DNA of 64,000 nucleotides from Candidatus Woesearchaeota archaeon (lineage in GTDB: Archaea; Nanobdellota; Nanobdellia; Woesearchaeales; JABGUJ01): the NCBI GenBank assembly GCA_018646625.1, contig JABGUJ010000001.1, positions 69,534 through 133,533 of the forward strand. Direction: 5' to 3'. Of this stretch, positions 15,361 through 26,514 are shown in pieces. The notes beneath the pieces are model-generated. The model was not told the DNA's origin. It searched no databases and saw only the letters and a program-made list of their open reading frames with translations. The position numbers and the translations under genes were made by a program. The stretch's first letter is position 1; each line of letters begins with the position of its first letter.

Positions 15361-15954
15361 CTAGATTTTATCCTTTAACTTCAACTCAAGAACCAAATCT
15401 TCTAATTTTTTAAGATCATACTTAATCGAATCAAATTTTCGTCTCAACTCACCATTACGAAAATCAAATTGCATAAGATTTTCATAGATCATAGCAACAA
15501 CATCTCTTATCTCAACTGATTCAGAATATTGTTCATTAATTGCTTTGTTAATAGCACGACGAACCAACTCGCCTGTTAAATCACACAAACCCAACAAATA
15601 ATTTTCCATGTAAACATTAGCATCCTTATACTCGAGTATTCGTTTATTCTTTACAAACTCAAGATAAGCTAATGCTTCAACATATTCTTGTTCCGCAACT
15701 TTTATAGAACCAGAATAGTACAGAGCCGGCCACCCTTTTGTAAATTCAACAACATCCGCCAACGCCTTCTTAATCTCATCTTTTAATTTTTCAGCTTTAT
15801 GAATTTCATCTCTATGTACAGAATTAATAAGTTGTTTAGATAACTTAACAACATCTCTAGACTTCTTAATCACATCATCTCTTTTTCTATCAAACTCATC
15901 CATATCTTTCTGAATTTGAGTAAAAGATTTTTCATCAAAAATTTTCGTAGTCAT
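15361..15954 (-). CDS. Translin-family protein
   Basis: This 197-residue, all-helical protein matches the translin/TRAX family. Key segments are YSGSIKVAEQEYVEALAYLEFV, with the glutamates that carry RNase activity in TRAX-type members, and YLLGLCDLTGELVRRAIN, a nearly family-standard motif. In eukaryotes translin and TRAX form the C3PO RNase; archaeal versions form an oligomeric cage from one subunit type. GGAGGT lies a few bases before the ATG, and a TATA box at about 15997-16004 gives a leader of about 20 bases. It is the first gene of a three-gene operon. Confidence 0.9.
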   Translation of the reverse strand: MTTKIFDEKSFTQIQKDMDEFDRKRDDVIKKSRDVVKLSKQLINSVHRDEIHKAEKLKDEIKKALADVVEFTKGWPALYYSGSIKVAEQEYVEALAYLEFVKNKRILEYKDANVYMENYLLGLCDLTGELVRRAINKAINEQYSESVEIRDVVAMIYENLMQFDFRNGELRRKFDSIKYDLKKLEDLVLELKLKDKI

Positions 15955-16071
15955 CTTTACCTCCGGGCAAAGCTACCTCAACACAATCACAGTCTGTTTA
16001 TATACGTTTTCATAAGATTAATCAAAGATAAACGAAAGGTTTATATACAGTTTAAAGCACTTTTAAACAAC

Positions 16072-16614
16072 ATGGTGAGCACATTTAGAGGGATCATTGA
16101 CTTCTTTGCGAGGTTAGGAATCTACGATGTCATTCTACCATTTCTACTTGTTTTCACAATTGTATTTGCAGCTCTAGAAAAAACAAAAGTATTCGGCATG
16201 GAAAAAATGCCTGATGGTAATGAGTACACCAAAAAGAATCTAAATTCAATGGTGGCTTTCGTTGTTGCATTTCTTGTAATTGCATCATCCAGAATTGTTG
16301 CAATAATTAATCAATCAATCGCACAAGTAGTTGTAATCTTAATCATAATGTTCTGCATCTTAATGGTATTAGGATTCTTCGCATATAGCGAAAAAGAAGA
16401 AGTTGTACTCTCGGGTACAATGAAAGGATTCTTTGTGATTGTTACAGTAGTTTCAATCGTCACAATATTTTTCAACGCAATAGGGTGGCTAGACCCCGTA
16501 TTGTTTTACGTAATGAACAACTTAACTGGAAACGTTATTGGTTCAATCATACTCATTGCTGTGGTCGTTGGTTTCATGTACTACATAACCAAAAGCCCTG
16601 ATAAATCAGAATAA
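16072..16614 (+). CDS. Membrane protein, paralogue 1 of three
   Basis: This 180-residue protein has about five membrane segments. Near the N-terminus it holds DVILPFLLVFTIVFAALEKT followed by KVFG, a motif shared with the next two genes. The ATG at 16072 fits a TTTATATA box at 16040-16047, so the transcript is leaderless; an upstream extension of the frame to 15916 would overlap the promoter and is not used. The C-terminus ends YYITKSPDKSE. Function is unknown. It starts the cluster that also encodes HerA-like and FlaI-like ATPases, so it may be a membrane part of that machine. Confidence 0.82.
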   Translation: MVSTFRGIIDFFARLGIYDVILPFLLVFTIVFAALEKTKVFGMEKMPDGNEYTKKNLNSMVAFVVAFLVIASSRIVAIINQSIAQVVVILIIMFCILMVLGFFAYSEKEEVVLSGTMKGFFVIVTVVSIVTIFFNAIGWLDPVLFYVMNNLTGNVIGSIILIAVVVGFMYYITKSPDKSE

Positions 16615-16648
16615 AAGGATAGCAAGAGAAACATTTAAATAGGGACTT

Positions 16649-16693
16649 GGTATAGCATTATACACACAGGAAGCTATACCATTAGAATCCTGT
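16649..16693. promoter_or_regulatory. Two overlapping inverted repeats at promoter/leader
   Basis: GGTATAGC (16649-16656) and GCTATACC (16673-16680) form a perfect 8-bp inverted repeat with a 16-bp spacer. ACAGGA (16666-16671) and TCCTGT (16688-16693) form a second, overlapping one, so both cannot form as hairpins together. The CATTTAAAT box at 16632-16640 predicts a start near 16662, so the first repeat spans the start site like an operator and the second lies in the leader before the AGGAGGT site. Confidence 0.55.
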
Positions 16694-16712
16694 ACAAAAG
16701 GAGGTTTTCAAT

Positions 16713-17297
16713 ATGGCTCTAAATTTCGTCGATCTGGTTCAGACACTAGAAAGCTACGGAGTTCTTGATGTTTTAATACCATTTTTACTAATATTCACAA
16801 TTGTCTTTGCAGTCTTGCAGAGAACACACATTCTCGGTAAGGCATCAGAAACTAAAAGATATAACGTGATCATTTCATTGGTTATGGCATTCGGTGTGGT
16901 TATTCCGCACGTAATCGGTGCATACCCTGCTGGATCTGATATCGTTGTAATAATCAACACAGCGCTTCCAAACGTTTCATTGGTAATAGTTGCTGCAATC
17001 ATGGTTCTTTTAATGATTGGTGTTTTCGGTGGAGAACTTGCAGGACCCGCAACAGGCGGTATCGCATTAGTTTCATTCTTAATCGTCGCATACATATTTG
17101 CGGTAGCAGCAGGATGGTTCCAAAATGTACCAAGCTGGCTAAAATGGGCGGTGAACCCGGACACTCAAGCATTACTCGTAATCTTAATCGTGTTTGGATT
17201 AATTGTATGGTTCATCACTAAAGACGAAGAAAAGAAAGACGAGGAAGGCATACTTGCGTCTGCTGGCGATATGTTCAGCAAACTGTTCAAGAAGTAA
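16713..17297 (+). CDS. Membrane protein, paralogue 2 of three
   Basis: This 194-residue protein has about five membrane spans. It carries the shared N-terminal motif, here VLIPFLLIFTIVFAVLQRTH followed by ILG, and a charged C-terminal tail (KDEEKKDEEGILASAGDMF) that should lie in the cytoplasm. The start is firm: AAAGGAGGT lies about 8 bases before the ATG, the strongest ribosome-binding site in the cluster, suggesting a highly made component. Its own promoter and inverted repeats precede it. Function is unknown. Confidence 0.83.
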   Translation: MALNFVDLVQTLESYGVLDVLIPFLLIFTIVFAVLQRTHILGKASETKRYNVIISLVMAFGVVIPHVIGAYPAGSDIVVIINTALPNVSLVIVAAIMVLLMIGVFGGELAGPATGGIALVSFLIVAYIFAVAAGWFQNVPSWLKWAVNPDTQALLVILIVFGLIVWFITKDEEKKDEEGILASAGDMFSKLFKK

Positions 17298-17321
17298 GCC
17301 TTTTTTATTTATTTTTTTACA

Positions 17322-17966
17322 ATGGCAACACCGTTAGATATGGGAATACTTCAACACGTGAAGATAGTGTTTCCCCTGCTAATGGTTTTTATTGTTGTTT
17401 TTGCAGGTTTAGAAAAAACTAAAGTTCTAGGTGAAGCTAACAGATCACTTAACGCAGTTCTATCTGTTTGTGTTTCAGCATTATTACTTTTATCTCCAAA
17501 CATGCTTAAGGTGTTAACAGTAGTCACTCCGTGGTTTGTTTTTGCAATCATTGCAATAACATTCTTCATAGTAATCTTCCTGTTCGCAGGTTATACCATG
17601 GATGAACTCACTGCCGACATGACAGGTGAATGGGGCTTTGCTCAATGGTTTCTACTCGTAGTTTTCATCATATTCATAATAGGAGGTTTGTCAACAGTAT
17701 ATGGACAAACTATGCTTCCATGGTCTGGAGATGAAAACGTCGCACCCGGTGGACAATACGGAGAATTTATTGACGAGAACGGAACAAGATCTATTGCTCC
17801 AATGGACAGAGTACGAGCAGACCAAGCTAAAGGAGACTACTCAACAAACACGGGAGACTTCCAATCTAATGTTGGTAAAATTGTATTCCACCCAAAGATC
17901 CTTGGCGCAGTTCTAATTTTAATTATATTCTCATTCGCAATAAGAATGCTAGCTTCTTCAGAATAA
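17322..17966 (+). CDS. Membrane protein, paralogue 3 of three
   Basis: This 214-residue protein begins MATPLDMGILQHVKIVFPLL and continues with the shared motif FAGLEKTKVLG. It differs from its two paralogues in having a polar loop of about 60 residues (roughly 130-190, with PWSGDENVAPGGQYGEFIDE) between the third and last membrane spans, probably an exposed domain. A T-rich run separates it from paralogue 2, and no ribosome-binding site is visible, so it may be read from a separate leaderless message or coupled. It converges with the minus-strand coiled-coil gene. Confidence 0.82.
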   Translation: MATPLDMGILQHVKIVFPLLMVFIVVFAGLEKTKVLGEANRSLNAVLSVCVSALLLLSPNMLKVLTVVTPWFVFAIIAITFFIVIFLFAGYTMDELTADMTGEWGFAQWFLLVVFIIFIIGGLSTVYGQTMLPWSGDENVAPGGQYGEFIDENGTRSIAPMDRVRADQAKGDYSTNTGDFQSNVGKIVFHPKILGAVLILIIFSFAIRMLASSE

Positions 17967-17999
17967 AACAAATAGAACAAGTAAAAAAGAAAATAATAA

Positions 18000-18722
18000 T
18001 TATGGTTTCTTAAGCGTAGCTTTCTGTCGAGCCAATCTAAGCTCTTTAGTGATATCAGAAAGTTCGTTAACGTTCTCAACAAAACCAGGCAACATCTTCG
18101 AAAAAACCTTTTCCATCGCCTTAACATCAGTACCTACTGTTTCGATAGTCTTGTTATACTCGCCAACTTTCTCAAGCAAAGCAGAATGTAATTTGTCAAA
18201 GTCTCCTTTCATAAGAGTAAACTTTTCTTCCAAAGCAATCATTCTTTGCTCAGTTTTTTCTTTCCAATCTACAATTCTTTTAACATTAGCTATAAGATCT
18301 TGCCATTTCTCATCAATAATCGACTCAGCCATCTCTTCCGTTCTAACATCTTGAGAATAAGGATCAGAAAACGCCGCAGTACCACCATACTGAGTACCAT
18401 ACGCATACCCTTGATCAGGATATTGTTGCTGTCCACCAGGCGGAGGAGGCGGAGGAACATTTGCTGGAGGAATTGGATTATCTACCATTTTATCACCTTT
18501 TTCTAGAGGAATCGGTTGAACCCCTCTTTTAACATCAACTTGATTCAAAGCATCATAAATTTCATGAACTTTAAATCCGTCTCTTTGCAAAGCTTGAACA
18601 ATTTGATTGTTCGAATAGCCTTGAGATCTGAAGTGCATTACTTGCGAAGTCGGAAGTCCTTGTGGTTCAACCGCTTTAGTTGCATCATCGGGCCTCTCAA
18701 AAGCATCTTTAACCACTACCAT
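18000..18722 (-). CDS. Coiled-coil protein with UBA-like helices and Pro-rich linker
   Basis: This protein of about 240 residues has three parts. Residues 27-65 form a short helical unit (HFRSQGYSNNQIVQALQRDG) like one seen at the C-terminus of the protein at 27019-28035. Then follows a Pro/Gly/Gln/Tyr-rich linker (VPPPPPPGGQQQYPDQ). The last 120 residues are a long heptad-rich helix (ENVNELSDITKELRLARQ at its end). I use the ATG at 18722; a TTG at 18764 in frame is less likely. It lacks membrane spans. Its place, flanked by the membrane paralogues and the HerA-like ATPase, suggests a scaffold or adaptor role. Confidence 0.75.
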   Translation of the reverse strand: MVVVKDAFERPDDATKAVEPQGLPTSQVMHFRSQGYSNNQIVQALQRDGFKVHEIYDALNQVDVKRGVQPIPLEKGDKMVDNPIPPANVPPPPPPGGQQQYPDQGYAYGTQYGGTAAFSDPYSQDVRTEEMAESIIDEKWQDLIANVKRIVDWKEKTEQRMIALEEKFTLMKGDFDKLHSALLEKVGEYNKTIETVGTDVKAMEKVFSKMLPGFVENVNELSDITKELRLARQKATLKKP

Positions 18723-18872
18723 CTTACTACCAAACTTAACACAATTTTTGAGCCAAGAGCTCAAAACCTATAATTCAAATAGCTACAGTGTTAATAAAGC
18801 TTTCTGATAAAAGAAGATTATCCGATAAGTATAAATATCATATAAACCGAATATAAACACAAAGAGAGGTGA

Positions 18873-20204
18873 ATGCGTTCTATGGTTTTGCCAGATAAGC
18901 AGAACATTGTAATTGGTAGAAGCAAAGAAGATACTGCCAAGTACGGAACTAAAGGCACCGTTCTTCTAGGTAAACACTATATCGAAATGGACGATAAGTA
19001 TGTCATACATGATGACGTATTTCTAGATGTTTCAGGAGCACACGTGGTATTTGTGTGCGGTAAAAGAGGTGGAGGTAAATCCTATACAATGGGAGTTATC
19101 GCTGAAGGATTCTCACTACTCGAACCAGAAATTAAAGACAATCTTGCAATTATCATGCTAGATACTATGGGCATTTATTGGTCTATGAGTCATCCAAATA
19201 AAAAAGAAAAAGATCTTCTCGAACCATACGGAATAGAGCCAAGAGGAATTAAAGTTCGAATATTCACACCCGAAAAATTCTACTACGAATACAAAAAGAA
19301 AGGAATACCCACAGACGACCCATTTACATTAGATCCTTCAACATTAAACGCAGATGATTGGTGCGCAGCATTCCACTTAGAAAAATACTCTCCAGAGGGG
19401 CTATTAATTTCAAAAATAACTACAGAGCTTCATGAAAAAGTAAAAAAATTCACTCTCGATGATTTAACAAAAGCAGTCAAAGAAGATAAAGAAACAGATA
19501 GAGAAACACAATCCGCAGTCGTTTCCATGTTTGAAACAGCAAAGGGGTGGGGAGTATTCTCTGATCACGCCACACCTTTAGAAGAACTTGCAAAAGGCGG
19601 ACAAATTACTGTACTAGATGTTAGTTGCTATGCCACCATGCCTGGAGGCTGGGACGTAAAAGCATTAGTTATTGGAATCGTCGCACAACATCTCTTCGTA
19701 CACAGAATGAAGATAAGAAAAGACGAAGAGTTCGACGACATTAAATATCGAGAACAATACTTTGCCAACGCAAGCGGCGTATCATTAAAGAAAAAAATGC
19801 CATTAGTTTGGTTAGTTATAGATGAAGCTCACGAATTTCTTCCAAAAGATGGAATTGTGGCATCCACTCAACCATTAGTAACAATAATGAGAGAAGGACG
19901 TCAACCAGGTATTTGTTTAATTATGGCAAGTCAACAGCCAGGAAAGATCCATACAGATGTTATGACTCAAAGCGACACAGTCATCGCGCACAGAATCACT
20001 GCAAGAATGGATGTTGAAGCTTTAAGTTTACTTGCACAAAGTTATATGAAAGAAGGATTATCAAGAGCAATGAATTTCTTACCAAGAGTTAAAGGCGCAG
20101 CAGTAGTTTTCGACGACGCTAATGAAAAGTTATATCAGATAAGAGTACGACCAAGATTCACATGGCACGGCGGAAGTTCACCTAGCGCATTAACTGATGA
20201 TTAA
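18873..20204 (+). CDS. HerA/VirB4-like P-loop ATPase
   Basis: This 443-residue ATPase has Walker A GKRGGGKS at residues 63-70 and Walker B LVWLVIDEAHEFLP (Asp-Glu near 317), followed by MREGRQPGICLIMASQQPGK, typical of HerA/DUF87 proteins that form hexamers and pump DNA or protein. No nuclease partner such as NurA lies nearby, so a role in the membrane machine is likelier than DNA-end resection, but that is inference. A GAGAGGTGA site lies just before the ATG at 18873; the ATG three codons on has better spacing and could be the true start. Confidence 0.87.
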   Translation: MRSMVLPDKQNIVIGRSKEDTAKYGTKGTVLLGKHYIEMDDKYVIHDDVFLDVSGAHVVFVCGKRGGGKSYTMGVIAEGFSLLEPEIKDNLAIIMLDTMGIYWSMSHPNKKEKDLLEPYGIEPRGIKVRIFTPEKFYYEYKKKGIPTDDPFTLDPSTLNADDWCAAFHLEKYSPEGLLISKITTELHEKVKKFTLDDLTKAVKEDKETDRETQSAVVSMFETAKGWGVFSDHATPLEELAKGGQITVLDVSCYATMPGGWDVKALVIGIVAQHLFVHRMKIRKDEEFDDIKYREQYFANASGVSLKKKMPLVWLVIDEAHEFLPKDGIVASTQPLVTIMREGRQPGICLIMASQQPGKIHTDVMTQSDTVIAHRITARMDVEALSLLAQSYMKEGLSRAMNFLPRVKGAAVVFDDANEKLYQIRVRPRFTWHGGSSPSALTDD

Positions 20205-20807
20205 TTAAGCATTACTAGAAGAACGTTCACGAAGAATTTTTCTAACAGTTCTCTCAACTTGTTCATCAATATATTTCTCTTCTTGAATCTTAAGATTTAA
20301 AGAAATCATTTGCTCTTCAACTTGCTGTTTAATCATTCTAGAAACTTCATCTCTGGAAACATACTTGATTGGCTCCCACATTTGAACATATCTTTCAAGA
20401 ACTTTAACATCTTGCGCCTTAGCACACGTTTGAAGATCTTTAATTATCAATTTAATATCAGATTTTATAGATTCAACTTCTTTCCAAACATCCTTAACTT
20501 GCTCTATAGAGGCCTTCATCTCATCACGAAGTTTCTTAGAAGAAGCAAGCATGTTACTATCAGTCACATTAAGCCGTTCACGAGCACTAACTTGCCGTTC
20601 CTCAATAATCCTAAGTCGACGACTCAAATTAGCAACATTTGTATTAATATCATTAAAATTTGGTTGAACAGCAGGAGTCGCGGGTTTATTTCCAAACAAA
20701 CCACCTCCCGCAGGTTTTGGTTTCTCTTCAGGTTTACCAGCTTTTCCACCGCCACCTAAGAAACCTAGAAATCCAGAATCTTTCTTCTCGTTAGGAGCAT
20801 CCGCCAT
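20205..20807 (-). CDS. Coiled-coil protein with Gly-rich N-terminus
   Basis: This protein of about 200 residues starts MADAPNEKKDSGFLGFLGGG. A Gly/Pro/Lys-rich stretch to about residue 50 is followed by a helix of about 150 residues with heptads (IRRLRI-type, then SIEQVKDVWKEVESIKSDIK). The ATG at 20807 is preceded by GGTGAT at good spacing; an upstream GTG at 20819 lies within that site. It resembles the coiled-coil gene at 18000-18722 in layout (flexible N-terminus, long C-terminal helix) and in position, convergent with the ATPase before it. Confidence 0.77.
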   Translation of the reverse strand: MADAPNEKKDSGFLGFLGGGGKAGKPEEKPKPAGGGLFGNKPATPAVQPNFNDINTNVANLSRRLRIIEERQVSARERLNVTDSNMLASSKKLRDEMKASIEQVKDVWKEVESIKSDIKLIIKDLQTCAKAQDVKVLERYVQMWEPIKYVSRDEVSRMIKQQVEEQMISLNLKIQEEKYIDEQVERTVRKILRERSSSNA

Positions 20808-20923
20808 GTTACTTATCACCTTAGACTAGCAAAAGACGCACTCTCGTGCAGATTTGCATGCCATTATTAGAGATACACATCAGTAAACTATATAAATACA
20901 GCTCATTTAATTTGGACTGAAAT

Positions 20924-20935
20924 AGTCCTAGGACT
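20924..20935. promoter_or_regulatory. Perfect 12-bp palindrome upstream of secretion ATPase
   Basis: AGTCCTAGGACT lies directly before an AATATAAAG TATA-like box at 20936-20944, a typical position for an archaeal activator or repressor. GGACT at 20914-20918 adds a third half-site. The hairpin GTCTAGG/CCTAGAC at 10674-10691 has a related core. Confidence 0.5.
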
Positions 20936-21025
20936 AATATAAAGGTTATGTTAGTATTTTTGAGTAAATAACAACAAAAATACAAACGACTAAAACAATA
21001 ATTACGTGAAAAAAGGGGTGTTTGC

Positions 21026-23335
21026 TTGCTCTTTGAAAAATCTAAAGAGGCTTTCAGTTACGAGTTAGTAAGAGAAGGCGATGATCGGATAGTAAAGATA
21101 AATTGCGATAGATATTCTAGAGCACCTAGTATCGAAGATGATTCTATCACCATGGCGAAAGCCGTAGAAATACTCACAGAAAATAAAGATGCAACTAAAG
21201 TAGTATTTCACCAAAAAAGAGATTATGAATACGATTACGATCAAACAGTTCTTCTAAAAGAGATTGGACAACTCAACAATCAGTTAGTAAAAGAAAAACA
21301 CAGATTCAGCTACAACGCATTACAATACCAAGGAGCATATGCAAAAAACGCGGAACAAAGATTCAATGAAATCCAAACAATTATTTACCATCTTTTGAAA
21401 AGCGATCCAGTTGGCGCATACGTCGAACTAAGAAGAATATTACGACACCAAAGACTTATTCTTATGAAAATTGCCGACACAAGGGCAATACCATATCAAG
21501 AAAACTTTGTGCAAATAGTTACAGAGCTAATAAAAAGATTAGAAGCCACAAAATTAATCATTCTTGCAAAACCAATGATCAGCGGCATGCGAATTGGTAA
21601 TCGAGATATATACAGAAATATCTTCAAACCAACAATAAAACCAGATTTTATGAACACAAAGTTAATGTCAACATACCCTGAAGATGGTGAAGAAATAGAA
21701 AGTTACAAAGTTGGAGAAACAGAAGTTACAGTATTCAAGCTTCCTTCAGATGTTAGAACTCTTTACCACATCAATCCCCCAGAGTTTAGACTTGACGAGG
21801 AGCAATACGAAATTCTGGATTTAGCTCGAAGAATTCTTGCAGAACACAAACCCACAAAAGAAGAATTTGTTAATCCTGAAAGAATGCGAAGAGTTTTCTT
21901 CAACGTAGGAAGAGATCTTTGCGAAGAACTTGCCAACTATAGAAATGTTAGAATGAGTGAAGAAGATTTAAATCTTATAACTAGAATTCTTATCAGATAC
22001 ACAATAGGATTTGGACTCATAGAAGTTTTGATGGAAGACGACGATATTCAAGACATATCTGTAAACAGCCCATATGGAACTACTCCAATATTCATAGTTC
22101 ATGGCAAACATGATGATTGTATCACAAATATCATTCCAACAAGAACTGAAGCGGAATCTTGGGCAACAAAGTTAAGAATGATCTCCGGAAGACCATTAGA
22201 TGAAGCAAACCCTATTCTCGACACAGAATTAGAACTTCCTGGCGCAAGCATAAGAACGTCCGTAATCACAGAACCTCTAGATCCAACAGGCTTAGCATTT
22301 TCATTCAGAAGACACAGAGCAAAACCATGGACTTTGCCTTTATTCATAAAAAACAAAATGATCTCACCTCTCGGTGCAGGTTTACTTAGTTTTCTAATCG
22401 ACGGTACAAGAACGTTTTTCGTATGCGGTACACGAAGTTCTGGTAAGTCCTCGTTTTTAGGAGGCATGTTAATAGAAATCATGAGAAGATACAGAATAAT
22501 CACTATTGAAGATACTATGGAACTTCCATTCACTCAAATGAAAGATTTAGGATTTAATATTGTAGCAATGAAAGTTGCATCTGCACTCTCAGAAGGTTCA
22601 GGAGAATTTACCGCCACTCAAGGTATTAGAAGTACATTAAGACTTGGAGACTCGTCATTGATTGTAGGCGAAGTACGGAGTAAAGAAGCAGTCGCATTAT
22701 TTGAAGGAATGAGAGTTAGTGCAGGCGCAAATGTTGCAGGTGGTACGTTTCACTCAGACTCACCCTACGGTGTGTTTGACAGAGTTGTAAATGCAATTGG
22801 AATCCCCGCAACCTCATTCAAAGCACTAGATTTAGTTATTATCGCAAATCCAATTAAATCCGCAGACGGTCTTCATAAATTCCGAAGAGTCACTCAAATA
22901 ACTGAAGTTAGAAAAGATTGGATAAAAGATCCTATGATGGAAGGCGGATTCCAAGATTTAATGAAGTATGATGCAAAAACCGATATGCTTCAACCAAGTG
23001 GTGCATTAATAGATGGCGATTCTGAAGTTATCAAAAGCATTGCAGCCAACATACCTGATTTTGTTGGGAACTGGGATGCCGTTTGGGAAAACATCGAATT
23101 AAGAGGAAAATTCAAACAAGCCATTGTAGAATATGCAGATAAAAGTGAAGATAAAGACGCACTAGAAGCACCATTTGTAATAAAATGTAACGATGCATTT
23201 CATTTAGCTACGGAAAAAGTTAAGAACAAAGTTGGAAAATTAGATTCTAAAGAAATATACAAAGAATGGGAAAGTTGGTTCACATTAGAAATAAAACGAA
23301 GACAAATGGAGATTCGCCAGAAGCTCGAAAAATAA
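21026..23335 (+). CDS. Type II/IV secretion ATPase (FlaI/TadA-like)
   Basis: This 769-residue protein has a C-terminal core of the PilT/VirB11/FlaI secretion ATPase family: Walker A GTRSSGKSS near residue 470, an Asp-box region ITIEDTMELPF, Walker B SLIVGEVRSKEAVALFEGMR and a His-box GGTFHSDSPYG. The first 240 residues are an extra N-terminal domain, making it longer than most FlaI proteins. A second extension of about 120 residues follows the core. Such ATPases power pilus, archaellum or secretion machines. The start is a TTG preceded by GGGGTG at 5 bases; no other start fits in frame. The next gene follows at 1 base. Confidence 0.88.
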   Translation: MLFEKSKEAFSYELVREGDDRIVKINCDRYSRAPSIEDDSITMAKAVEILTENKDATKVVFHQKRDYEYDYDQTVLLKEIGQLNNQLVKEKHRFSYNALQYQGAYAKNAEQRFNEIQTIIYHLLKSDPVGAYVELRRILRHQRLILMKIADTRAIPYQENFVQIVTELIKRLEATKLIILAKPMISGMRIGNRDIYRNIFKPTIKPDFMNTKLMSTYPEDGEEIESYKVGETEVTVFKLPSDVRTLYHINPPEFRLDEEQYEILDLARRILAEHKPTKEEFVNPERMRRVFFNVGRDLCEELANYRNVRMSEEDLNLITRILIRYTIGFGLIEVLMEDDDIQDISVNSPYGTTPIFIVHGKHDDCITNIIPTRTEAESWATKLRMISGRPLDEANPILDTELELPGASIRTSVITEPLDPTGLAFSFRRHRAKPWTLPLFIKNKMISPLGAGLLSFLIDGTRTFFVCGTRSSGKSSFLGGMLIEIMRRYRIITIEDTMELPFTQMKDLGFNIVAMKVASALSEGSGEFTATQGIRSTLRLGDSSLIVGEVRSKEAVALFEGMRVSAGANVAGGTFHSDSPYGVFDRVVNAIGIPATSFKALDLVIIANPIKSADGLHKFRRVTQITEVRKDWIKDPMMEGGFQDLMKYDAKTDMLQPSGALIDGDSEVIKSIAANIPDFVGNWDAVWENIELRGKFKQAIVEYADKSEDKDALEAPFVIKCNDAFHLATEKVKNKVGKLDSKEIYKEWESWFTLEIKRRQMEIRQKLEK

Positions 23336-23336
23336 A

Positions 23337-25556
23337 ATGGCCGGTATCGATGAAAATGAGCTCAAAAACCTTCTTGCTAAATATAAAAACGAAATAGAGA
23401 ATCAAACTCAGGAAGACGTTAAAGAAAACCCAGAAGTCAGAGAAGTATCCACAAGAGAATATACAGAGTTCAAGAATGAATACATTCCAAAGCATTTAAG
23501 CTGGTACGAGAAAGCATGTAACAAAACAGAAAAGATTATACAAATACATCCTGACGCTAAAAAACTTGCAAAACTTAAAATTTCTATTGAAGCATCTCAT
23601 CTAGACGTAACTCCAGTAGGGGTTGCAAGTTTTGGTTTAATGGCCCCACTAGCCGTCGCAGGTATTGGTGCAATAGTCAGTCTACTGCTATTAGATTCAT
23701 TATTCTTTGCAATGGTATTCTTAATACTGGGTGCCAGCCTTATAGGTCCACTTAACGGTGCACCGCACTTCATTGCCACTTCTTGGCGTATGAAAGCAAG
23801 TAACCAAATGGTTCTTTGCGTTTTTTACATTGTAACATTTATGCGTCACACATCTAACTTAGAAGGCGCAATAAGATTTGCATCAGATCACCTTAGTCCT
23901 CCATTATCTCTAGATCTTAGAAGAGTTATCTGGAATGTTGAAACAGAAAAATGTGAGTCCATAAAAGAATCTCTGGATGCATACTTAGAAAGTTGGAAAG
24001 ACTACAACATGGAATTTGTTGAAGCTTTACACTTAATAGAATCATCATTATTTGAAACATCAGAACAACGAAGAGTAGCATTACTAGAAAAATCACTCGA
24101 CGTCATTCTTTCTGAAACATATGAGAAAATGTTGCATTATGCTCACAGCCTAAAAGGACCTCTAACCATGCTTAACATGCTTGGTGTCGTTCTGCCAGTT
24201 ATGGGATTAGTAATCTTACCGCTTTTGGTAAGTTTTATGGAAGGAGTAGCCTGGTATCACATTGCAACACTTTATGATTTCTTCCTACCATTAGGTGTGT
24301 TCTATCTAGGTAGAAAAATTCTACAATCTAGACCATCAGGATACGGAGACACAGACATTTCCAACAACCCCGATGTTAAAAAATACAAAAACATTGTTAT
24401 GAAATTTGGAAAAACGGAGTACTTAGTACCTCCACTATATCTTTCAATATTCATTGGCGCAACTTTGATTTTTCTTGGCCTGACGCCATTAATAATTCAT
24501 GTACTAACTGCCACCGACACACCACCATTTGGATGGGATGTAGGCATAGGTAAAGAAAATGACGGAGATTATCCATTCTGGTTAATAGAATACAAAGAAA
24601 GCTTAAAACAAGTAGATGCTGACGGAAATCCTATAATCCACGGCCCTTTTGGAATTGGTGCCTCACTTATTAGTGTACTCATACCGTTAGGTTTGGGCAT
24701 TAGCATAGGATTCTATAATAAATTTCGAACTCAAAACATCATAAAAATACGAAGCGCCGCAAAACAGCTAGAAAGAGAATTCTCGGCAGCATTATTCCAA
24801 CTAGGAAACAGATTAGGTGACGGATTACCTGCAGAAATTGCCTTCCAAAGAGTAGCGGAAACCATGAAAGACAGCACATCAGGAAGATTCTTCAAACTAG
24901 TATCATCTAACATTGCAAGATTAGGAATGAGTGTTGAACAATCCATCTTTGATCCAGAACATGGCGCACTAATACACTTCCCTTCCAATATGATTGAGAG
25001 TTCTATGAAAGTATTAACCGAGTCTTCTAAGAAAGGACCATTAATTGCAGCTGAAGCGCTAATCAACGTTTCAAGATACATTAAAGAGATGCATAAAGTT
25101 GACGAAAGACTAAAAGACTTAATGGCAGACATTGTTGGAAGCATGAATTCTCAGATTAAGTTTTTGACTCCAGCAATTTCAGGAATTGTTATAGGAATTA
25201 CTGCCATGGTTACCACAATCATCGGTAAGTTAGGTAAAAATATTAAAGCAATCCAAGCCAAAACAATCGAAGCGGGATCTTCTGCCGCAGGTGCCGACGG
25301 CCTTGCAGGATTATTTGGAGACGGTATGCCAACATTCCACTTCCAAGTCATAGTAGGTTTATACGTTATATTGCTAGTACTTATTCTAACTACTATTGTT
25401 AACGGTATTGAGAATGGTTCTGATTCATTAAATGAAAAATATTTGATCGGAGTAAATCTAATCGGGGCCAGCATAAAATATTCTATAATATCCATATGTG
25501 TAATGGCGCTCTTCCAAATAATAGCTGGAGCAATACTACTAAAAACAACAATGTAA
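23337..25556 (+). CDS. Secretion-system F-type membrane protein, double length
   Basis: This 739-residue protein has about nine membrane spans and resembles the GspF/TadC/FlaJ platform proteins, which pair with the ATPase encoded just upstream. Two cytoplasmic regions with GspF-type helices are visible: one at about 150-270 (FVEALHLIESSLFETSEQRR) and one at about 470-600 (FSAALFQLGNRLGDGLPAEI). This arrangement, two F domains in one chain, is a known archaeal platform design (TadC-like/FlaJ). The frame starts one base after the ATPase stop, so the two genes are coupled. No prepilin or prepilin peptidase gene is visible nearby. Confidence 0.87.
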   Translation: MAGIDENELKNLLAKYKNEIENQTQEDVKENPEVREVSTREYTEFKNEYIPKHLSWYEKACNKTEKIIQIHPDAKKLAKLKISIEASHLDVTPVGVASFGLMAPLAVAGIGAIVSLLLLDSLFFAMVFLILGASLIGPLNGAPHFIATSWRMKASNQMVLCVFYIVTFMRHTSNLEGAIRFASDHLSPPLSLDLRRVIWNVETEKCESIKESLDAYLESWKDYNMEFVEALHLIESSLFETSEQRRVALLEKSLDVILSETYEKMLHYAHSLKGPLTMLNMLGVVLPVMGLVILPLLVSFMEGVAWYHIATLYDFFLPLGVFYLGRKILQSRPSGYGDTDISNNPDVKKYKNIVMKFGKTEYLVPPLYLSIFIGATLIFLGLTPLIIHVLTATDTPPFGWDVGIGKENDGDYPFWLIEYKESLKQVDADGNPIIHGPFGIGASLISVLIPLGLGISIGFYNKFRTQNIIKIRSAAKQLEREFSAALFQLGNRLGDGLPAEIAFQRVAETMKDSTSGRFFKLVSSNIARLGMSVEQSIFDPEHGALIHFPSNMIESSMKVLTESSKKGPLIAAEALINVSRYIKEMHKVDERLKDLMADIVGSMNSQIKFLTPAISGIVIGITAMVTTIIGKLGKNIKAIQAKTIEAGSSAAGADGLAGLFGDGMPTFHFQVIVGLYVILLVLILTTIVNGIENGSDSLNEKYLIGVNLIGASIKYSIISICVMALFQIIAGAILLKTTM

Positions 25557-26429: not shown

Positions 26430-26440
26430 AAGAAAAAAAG

Positions 26441-26514
26441 TGGGACGAGGGGGATTTGAACCCCCAACACCTACGTCTTCAGCGTAGTGCTCTCCCAGAT
26501 TGAGCTATCGTCCC
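26441..26514 (-). tRNA. tRNA-Phe (GAA)
   Basis: Read on the minus strand, a 7-bp acceptor stem (GGGACGA with TCGTCCC), a D arm with GCTC/GAGC, an anticodon stem CTACG/CGTAG and a T arm GGGGG/CCCCC with loop TTCAAAT fold as a standard tRNA. The anticodon loop is CTGAAGA, anticodon GAA. The discriminator base is A, CCA is not encoded and no intron is seen. Confidence 0.97.

Follow-up and report, generated by a model that had tools for sequence, protein, structure and literature searches.

A gene cluster present in almost all Nanobdellota and its probable role as the core, motor and platform, of a divergent type IV filament machine

This study examined a cluster of eight genes in the genome of a Candidatus Woesearchaeota archaeon, within a stretch of 64,000 nucleotides of contig JABGUJ010000001.1 that is referred to here as the window. 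We think it likely, with some reserve, that these genes form the core, motor and platform, of a divergent type IV filament machine present in nearly all genomes of the phylum Nanobdellota. This reading follows from the joint conservation of a FlaI-type ATPase, a T2SSF-type platform protein, a trio of membrane proteins (M1-M3) and two coiled-coil proteins (CC1 and CC2), together with the presence of pilin-like genes adjoining them in relatives. Points against it are that the platform protein, FlaJ, is highly diverged, that the role of M1-M3 is guessed, and that the filament itself is predicted from genes.

Gene content and organization

The host genome (1.57 Mb, 96% complete) is placed by GTDB in the Nanobdellota, with Woesearchaeota and other members of the phylum as its nearest named relatives. 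The original prediction, made from the DNA sequence, described three related membrane proteins, two coiled-coil proteins, HerA-like and FlaI-like ATPases and a platform protein between positions 16072 and 25556, acting as one membrane machine. Open frames and profile searches showed this inventory to be real. The prediction is also supported in that there is a single conserved machine, built on the FlaI/FlaJ pair, to which the membrane trio belongs. All eight genes are open frames, as follows.

15361..15954, minus strand: translin-family protein, context, outside the gene count of the machine
16072..16614, plus strand: M1, first of the trio, membrane protein with about five transmembrane helices, start codon ATG at 16072
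16713..17297, plus strand: M2, second paralog of the trio
17322..17966, plus strand: M3, third paralog of the trio
18000..18764, minus strand: CC1, UBA-like helical N-terminus, disordered linker and conserved coiled coil
18873..20204, plus strand: HerA-like ATPase, Walker A motif GKRGGGKS intact
20205..20819, minus strand: CC2, disordered N-terminus, then coiled coil
21026..23335, plus strand: FlaI/VirB11-type ATPase, added domain at residues ~1-217
23337..25556, plus strand: FlaJ/TadC-type platform, a highly diverged T2SSF protein

A TATA-like box (gtttatata, at about position 16039) lies upstream of M1. The translin-family gene is the divergent upstream neighbor of M1 in several relatives as well, with TATA-like boxes between both genes. 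The sole RNA gene detected in the window is a tRNA-Phe (GAA) at 26440-26514 on the minus strand.

Conservation across the phylum

Nanobdellota are tiny archaea, most of them symbiotic and dependent on a host. Among 371 genomes of the phylum, the FlaJ profile found a match in 362 and the M-family profile in 357, with three M copies in most. Both were absent from four genomes, which is above expectation (Fisher p=1.5e-4), although the incompleteness of draft genomes inflates this co-absence statistic; one of the four, G040 (97% complete), also has no full-length FlaI. At 33 FlaI loci, chosen without regard to M, at least two M genes were present in 25, three in 21, CC1 in 28, and CC2 in 31. The M genes shared the orientation of FlaI at 24 of the 25 loci, the CC genes lay on the opposite strand with few exceptions, and the order M1> M2> M3> <CC1 <CC2 FlaI> FlaJ> was repeated in most sampled families. 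Repetition of this gene set and its orientations across tens of families excludes chance.

Scattering of the genes in related genomes, which would have spoken against a single machine, was not observed for the core. Partial dispersal did occur in several Woesearchaeales, where FlaJ stands by itself or FlaI has no M gene nearby, and this would suit the view that M1-M3 and CC1/CC2 are housekeeping neighbors, functionally unconnected to the FlaI/FlaJ motor. Such a view is extremely improbable, however, since order and orientation are kept over many families, the copy number of M is mostly three, and absences coincide.

The machine is kept in genomes down to ~0.5 Mb. Near-universal retention, even at this size, means that its function is probably essential to these cells, with host contact the obvious candidate and a plausible role. 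The same near-universality, in a phylum of ectosymbionts, would fit a different, non-pilus structure for host contact, namely an attachment organelle like that of Nanobdella, with M1-M3 and CC1/CC2 as its membrane base and FlaI/FlaJ as its assembly motor; an elaborate attachment organelle is described for Nanobdella (PMC11104419), and a contact role has been proposed for related loci by Hamm et al. (PMC11291902). Images of such organelles exist for very few species, whereas the genes occur in almost all, and we consider this explanation quite unlikely.

The motor ATPase and the platform protein

FlaI of the window matched the NCBIfam models of archaellum FlaI (E=3.7e-36) and of the TadA family (E=5.8e-35), its core being equally near to TadA/CpaF and to archaellar FlaI, and its relatives are proteins of the GspE/CpaF/FlaI kind. 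The Walker motifs are intact, and a VirB11/GspE-family assembly ATPase of this kind is a hallmark of the type IV filament superfamily. Alignments to solved relatives begin no earlier than residue 218 (2oap, E=2e-32), while residues 1 to ~217 are conserved across 39 loci, in agreement with the extra N-terminal domain proposed for this secretion ATPase. The model of this domain is confident (pLDDT 90, pTM 0.81) and combines a beta-beta-alpha-beta-beta unit with a helical bundle. A Foldseek search of the PDB returned nothing below E=0.49. Residues 42-183 of the model resemble a Dicer insert domain in their helices (Z 10, rmsd 3.0 over 102 residues), a likeness that may be just a common helical arrangement. 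In two relatives (G064:C1:7024-12894 and G214:C11:1237-5040) the FlaI frames are 1966 and 1320 aa long with the ATPase in pieces, probably owing to inteins.

FlaJ of the window did not match Pfam T2SSF, and within its family weak matches were found in two of nine members (best E 0.008). Frames of relatives that lie within FlaJ genes, or are of FlaJ length, matched T2SSF at E values of ~1e-4 to 1e-3, one of them, in G023, coinciding with the FlaJ found by the platform profile. Alignment of the FlaJ profile with canonical T2SSF proteins by hhalign gave E=4.7e-5 and a probability of 68%. The F-type platform of the original prediction can thus be retained as a strongly diverged T2SSF relative (FlaJ/TadC/PilC), again a component of the type IV filament superfamily. 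In G004 (contig C9, L177:12555-14723) FlaI is immediately followed by a second, diverged FlaJ encoded on the other strand, and the usual FlaJ lies ~19 kb further on.

The membrane trio and the coiled-coil proteins

Alignment across loci showed M1, M2, and M3 to be one family with a common motif near the first membrane helix, as had been predicted, and hydropathy indicated about five transmembrane helices. In a tree of 72 M proteins (24 complete trios), the 24 M3 sequences formed a single clade (99/93), and most M1 and most M2 fell into clades of their own; a few rows on long branches were left unplaced. Label changes numbered four, against 34 in shuffles. Given this separation, the triplication is probably older than the radiation of the class.

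No relatives of M1-M3 were detectable in Pfam or the PDB, none of the family was found in viral contigs, and a Foldseek search of the PDB with the AlphaFold model of M1 (pLDDT 78, pTM 0.45) gave no match. Derivation of the trio from a degenerate FlaJ was considered and rejected, as there is no similarity between them. With no relatives in these databases, any role for the trio is a guess. The trio nonetheless offers a handle on how the base of the filament departs from known pili.

Both CC1 and CC2 begin with a disordered P/Q/G-rich segment that is followed by a coiled coil, confirming the flexible N-termini proposed for them. The N-terminus of CC1 matched UBA_3 weakly (E=0.0035), and a search for this UBA-like segment in other proteins gave no significant match outside CC1. 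HMMER cross-hits between CC1 and CC2 raised the possibility that they are paralogs, which was rejected (hhalign E=0.041, probability 1.3%); the cross-hits are likely due to coiled-coil bias. Inspection by eye revealed neither a transmembrane helix nor a signal peptide in CC1 or CC2, so both are probably cytosolic, and such a role is likelier than one resembling that of viral attachment proteins.

Pilins and prepilin peptidase

The original prediction noted the absence of pilins and of a prepilin peptidase. This is correct for the window, where no prepilin peptidase was found and a simple scan yielded no convincing pilin, but it does not hold as a feature of the system. At four loci of other families (L136, L138, L143, and L149), a run of as many as ten pilin-like genes comes after FlaJ. 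Almost all of these genes encode a short basic N-terminus and a single transmembrane helix, and in L149, the single such locus, they are followed by a prepilin peptidase (Pfam A24). The host genome carries an island of more than 15 pilin-like genes (C2:247501-267500) ~150 kb from the cluster. Five island genes match five consecutive FlaJ-adjoining genes of locus L035 (best E=6.7e-237), and further ones match genes at most ~6 kb from FlaJ in about a dozen class-level loci. The FlaJ-side operons and the homologous island led us to reject a system devoid of pilins. Pilin-like subunits encoded with the motor, a further mark of the superfamily, are found beside FlaJ in relatives and, in the present genome, in a separate island linked by homology. 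Prepilin peptidase of the A24 family, likewise typical of the superfamily, was present in 39 of 40 relatives including the host genome, which has one (C1:258885-259220).

The window system is one of three in the host genome that pair a VirB11-type ATPase with T2SSF proteins. A canonical archaeal type IV pilus locus (G000:C2:435293-440407; L083:5293-10407) has a VirB11-type ATPase, two T2SSF proteins, and three pilins with class III signal peptides (RGQAAMEFLMTYGW). A third VirB11-type ATPase, of 402 aa, lies with a T2SSF-type partner on C1 (L084:9555-12017). The prepilin peptidase and other parts may be shared among the three, or the peptidase could belong to the two other systems instead, as in principle could the island. 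By association, the island pilins are the candidate cognate pilins of the window system.

Many of the pilin-like proteins have large, diverse exodomains. These would also suit secretion of the Tad/T2SS type, with a short pseudopilus pushing proteins out or into the host and M1-M3 as the translocation channel, which three polytopic paralogs could line; the nearness of the FlaI core to TadA/CpaF points the same way. No recognized secretion channel or substrate was seen, however, and short tandem pilins resembling major pilins (the A6 family) occur in 58 of 60 relatives, so that we regard secretion as unlikely.

The HerA-like ATPase

The predicted HerA-like ATPase is present in the window (Pfam DUF87, E=4.9e-11), but the proposed signature of two different ATPases did not survive comparison with other genomes. 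A HerA relative was found in 57 of 60 related genomes, usually as a stand-alone gene and mostly 50-58% identical to the window copy. HerA is missing from most sampled clusters, the exceptions being those of four sampled genomes. In the HerA tree the copies of the window and of loci L038, L046, L047, and L048 formed one clade (100/100); four of these five are inside the cluster, that of L048 being located elsewhere, and all five genomes also retain a stand-alone HerA. By tree and location, then, the cluster HerA is a lineage-specific duplicate of the near-universal stand-alone gene, recruited into the cluster as a late addition in one subclade. Gene neighborhoods and tree together rule it out as a core component. 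In several relatives (L078:8681-11284, L079:9146-11746, and L080:8967-11588) the stand-alone HerA has an in-frame insert of ~430 aa in Walker A, with boundaries GGGK^C...HN^S, and the insert bears the hallmarks of an intein.

These results bear on the proposal of a secretion, DNA-transfer or contact system. Contact and secretion are still plausible, but the idea of DNA transfer had rested on HerA, and loses its basis with HerA late and non-core. In that scheme, DNA uptake or transfer of a Ced- or conjugation-like kind, HerA would be the DNA pump; its place within the cluster and its weak match to NCBIfam CedD (E=4.1e-5) are in favor. Nearly all other loci lack HerA in the cluster, however, and a HerA/VirB4-type pump is accordingly not the conserved part of the locus that DNA import or conjugation systems (Ced, T4SS) have; nor was a CedA-like or relaxase gene recognized among the cluster proteins. 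This makes DNA transfer very improbable.

Proposed machine

In the type IV filament machine that we favor, a FlaI hexamer would turn FlaJ, and processed pilins would be drawn from the membrane into a filament that touches a host or partner cell. M1-M3 may surround FlaJ in the membrane as a hetero-oligomeric collar, serving as anchor, stator or gate, while CC1 and CC2 could make up a cytosolic collar joining the N-domain of FlaI to the membrane, as ArlC/D/E do in the archaellum. In the window lineage, the duplicated HerA might act as an accessory motor within the operon. A stronger version, in which the machine is a distinct, phylum-wide class of filament, with the M trio as an obligatory collar around the platform, and constitutes the conserved host-contact apparatus of Nanobdellota, is conceivable but rather doubtful.

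Comparison with known systems

The archaellum (ArlI/ArlJ with ArlC/D/E) resembles the cluster in its FlaI-type ATPase, FlaJ-type platform, and cytosolic coiled-coil accessories. It differs in that the cluster adds three unrelated membrane proteins, CC1 and CC2 of the window have no match to archaellar Pfam models, and ArlH, ArlF, and ArlG were not recognized among the cluster proteins, as the original prediction of no other known archaellum gene had it. Tad/CpaF and T2SS machines share the ATPase core and the T2SSF platform family, but no secretin, TadZ or Flp was recognized in the cluster, which has M1-M3 in addition.

Closer are two DPANN loci that Hamm et al. (2024, PMC11291902) described as conserved and as combining CpaF and TadC with coiled-coil proteins. 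Those authors suggested a role in cell-cell interaction and saw a likeness between the coiled-coil proteins and viral attachment proteins. Their locus 2, reported in Woese-, Pace-, Nano-, Nanohalo- and Aenigmarchaeota, combines a CpaF/FlaI ATPase and TadC/FlaJ with two coiled-coil proteins (NAR1_03220/NAR1_01690), and our cluster is most likely this locus, matched by gene content rather than by sequence. As described there, locus 2 comes without mention of the M trio, the HerA insertion, the FlaI N-domain or pilins. The combination of genes, thought at the outset to be unfamiliar, is thus familiar in its ATPase/TadC/coiled-coil core, whereas the M trio is undescribed in the accounts cited here. 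High non-synonymous variation has been reported in a nanoarchaeal FlaJ/TadC (Jarett et al. 2018, PMC6142677).

The clade 4F archaeal pili of Makarova et al. (2016, PMC4858521) are alike, by their description, in having a VirB11-type ATPase and TadC; a halobacterial 4F system includes a coiled-coil protein, and nanoarchaea are reported to have a 4F ATPase. A membrane trio is not part of that description, and the cognate pilins of nanoarchaea 'could not be identified'. The FlaJ-side pilins and the homologous island offer, by association, an answer to these missing nanoarchaeal pilins, and open the structure to direct testing in cultivated Nanobdellota. Set against the published descriptions, the M trio, the FlaI N-domain, the recruitment of HerA, and the pilin assignment appear to be new.
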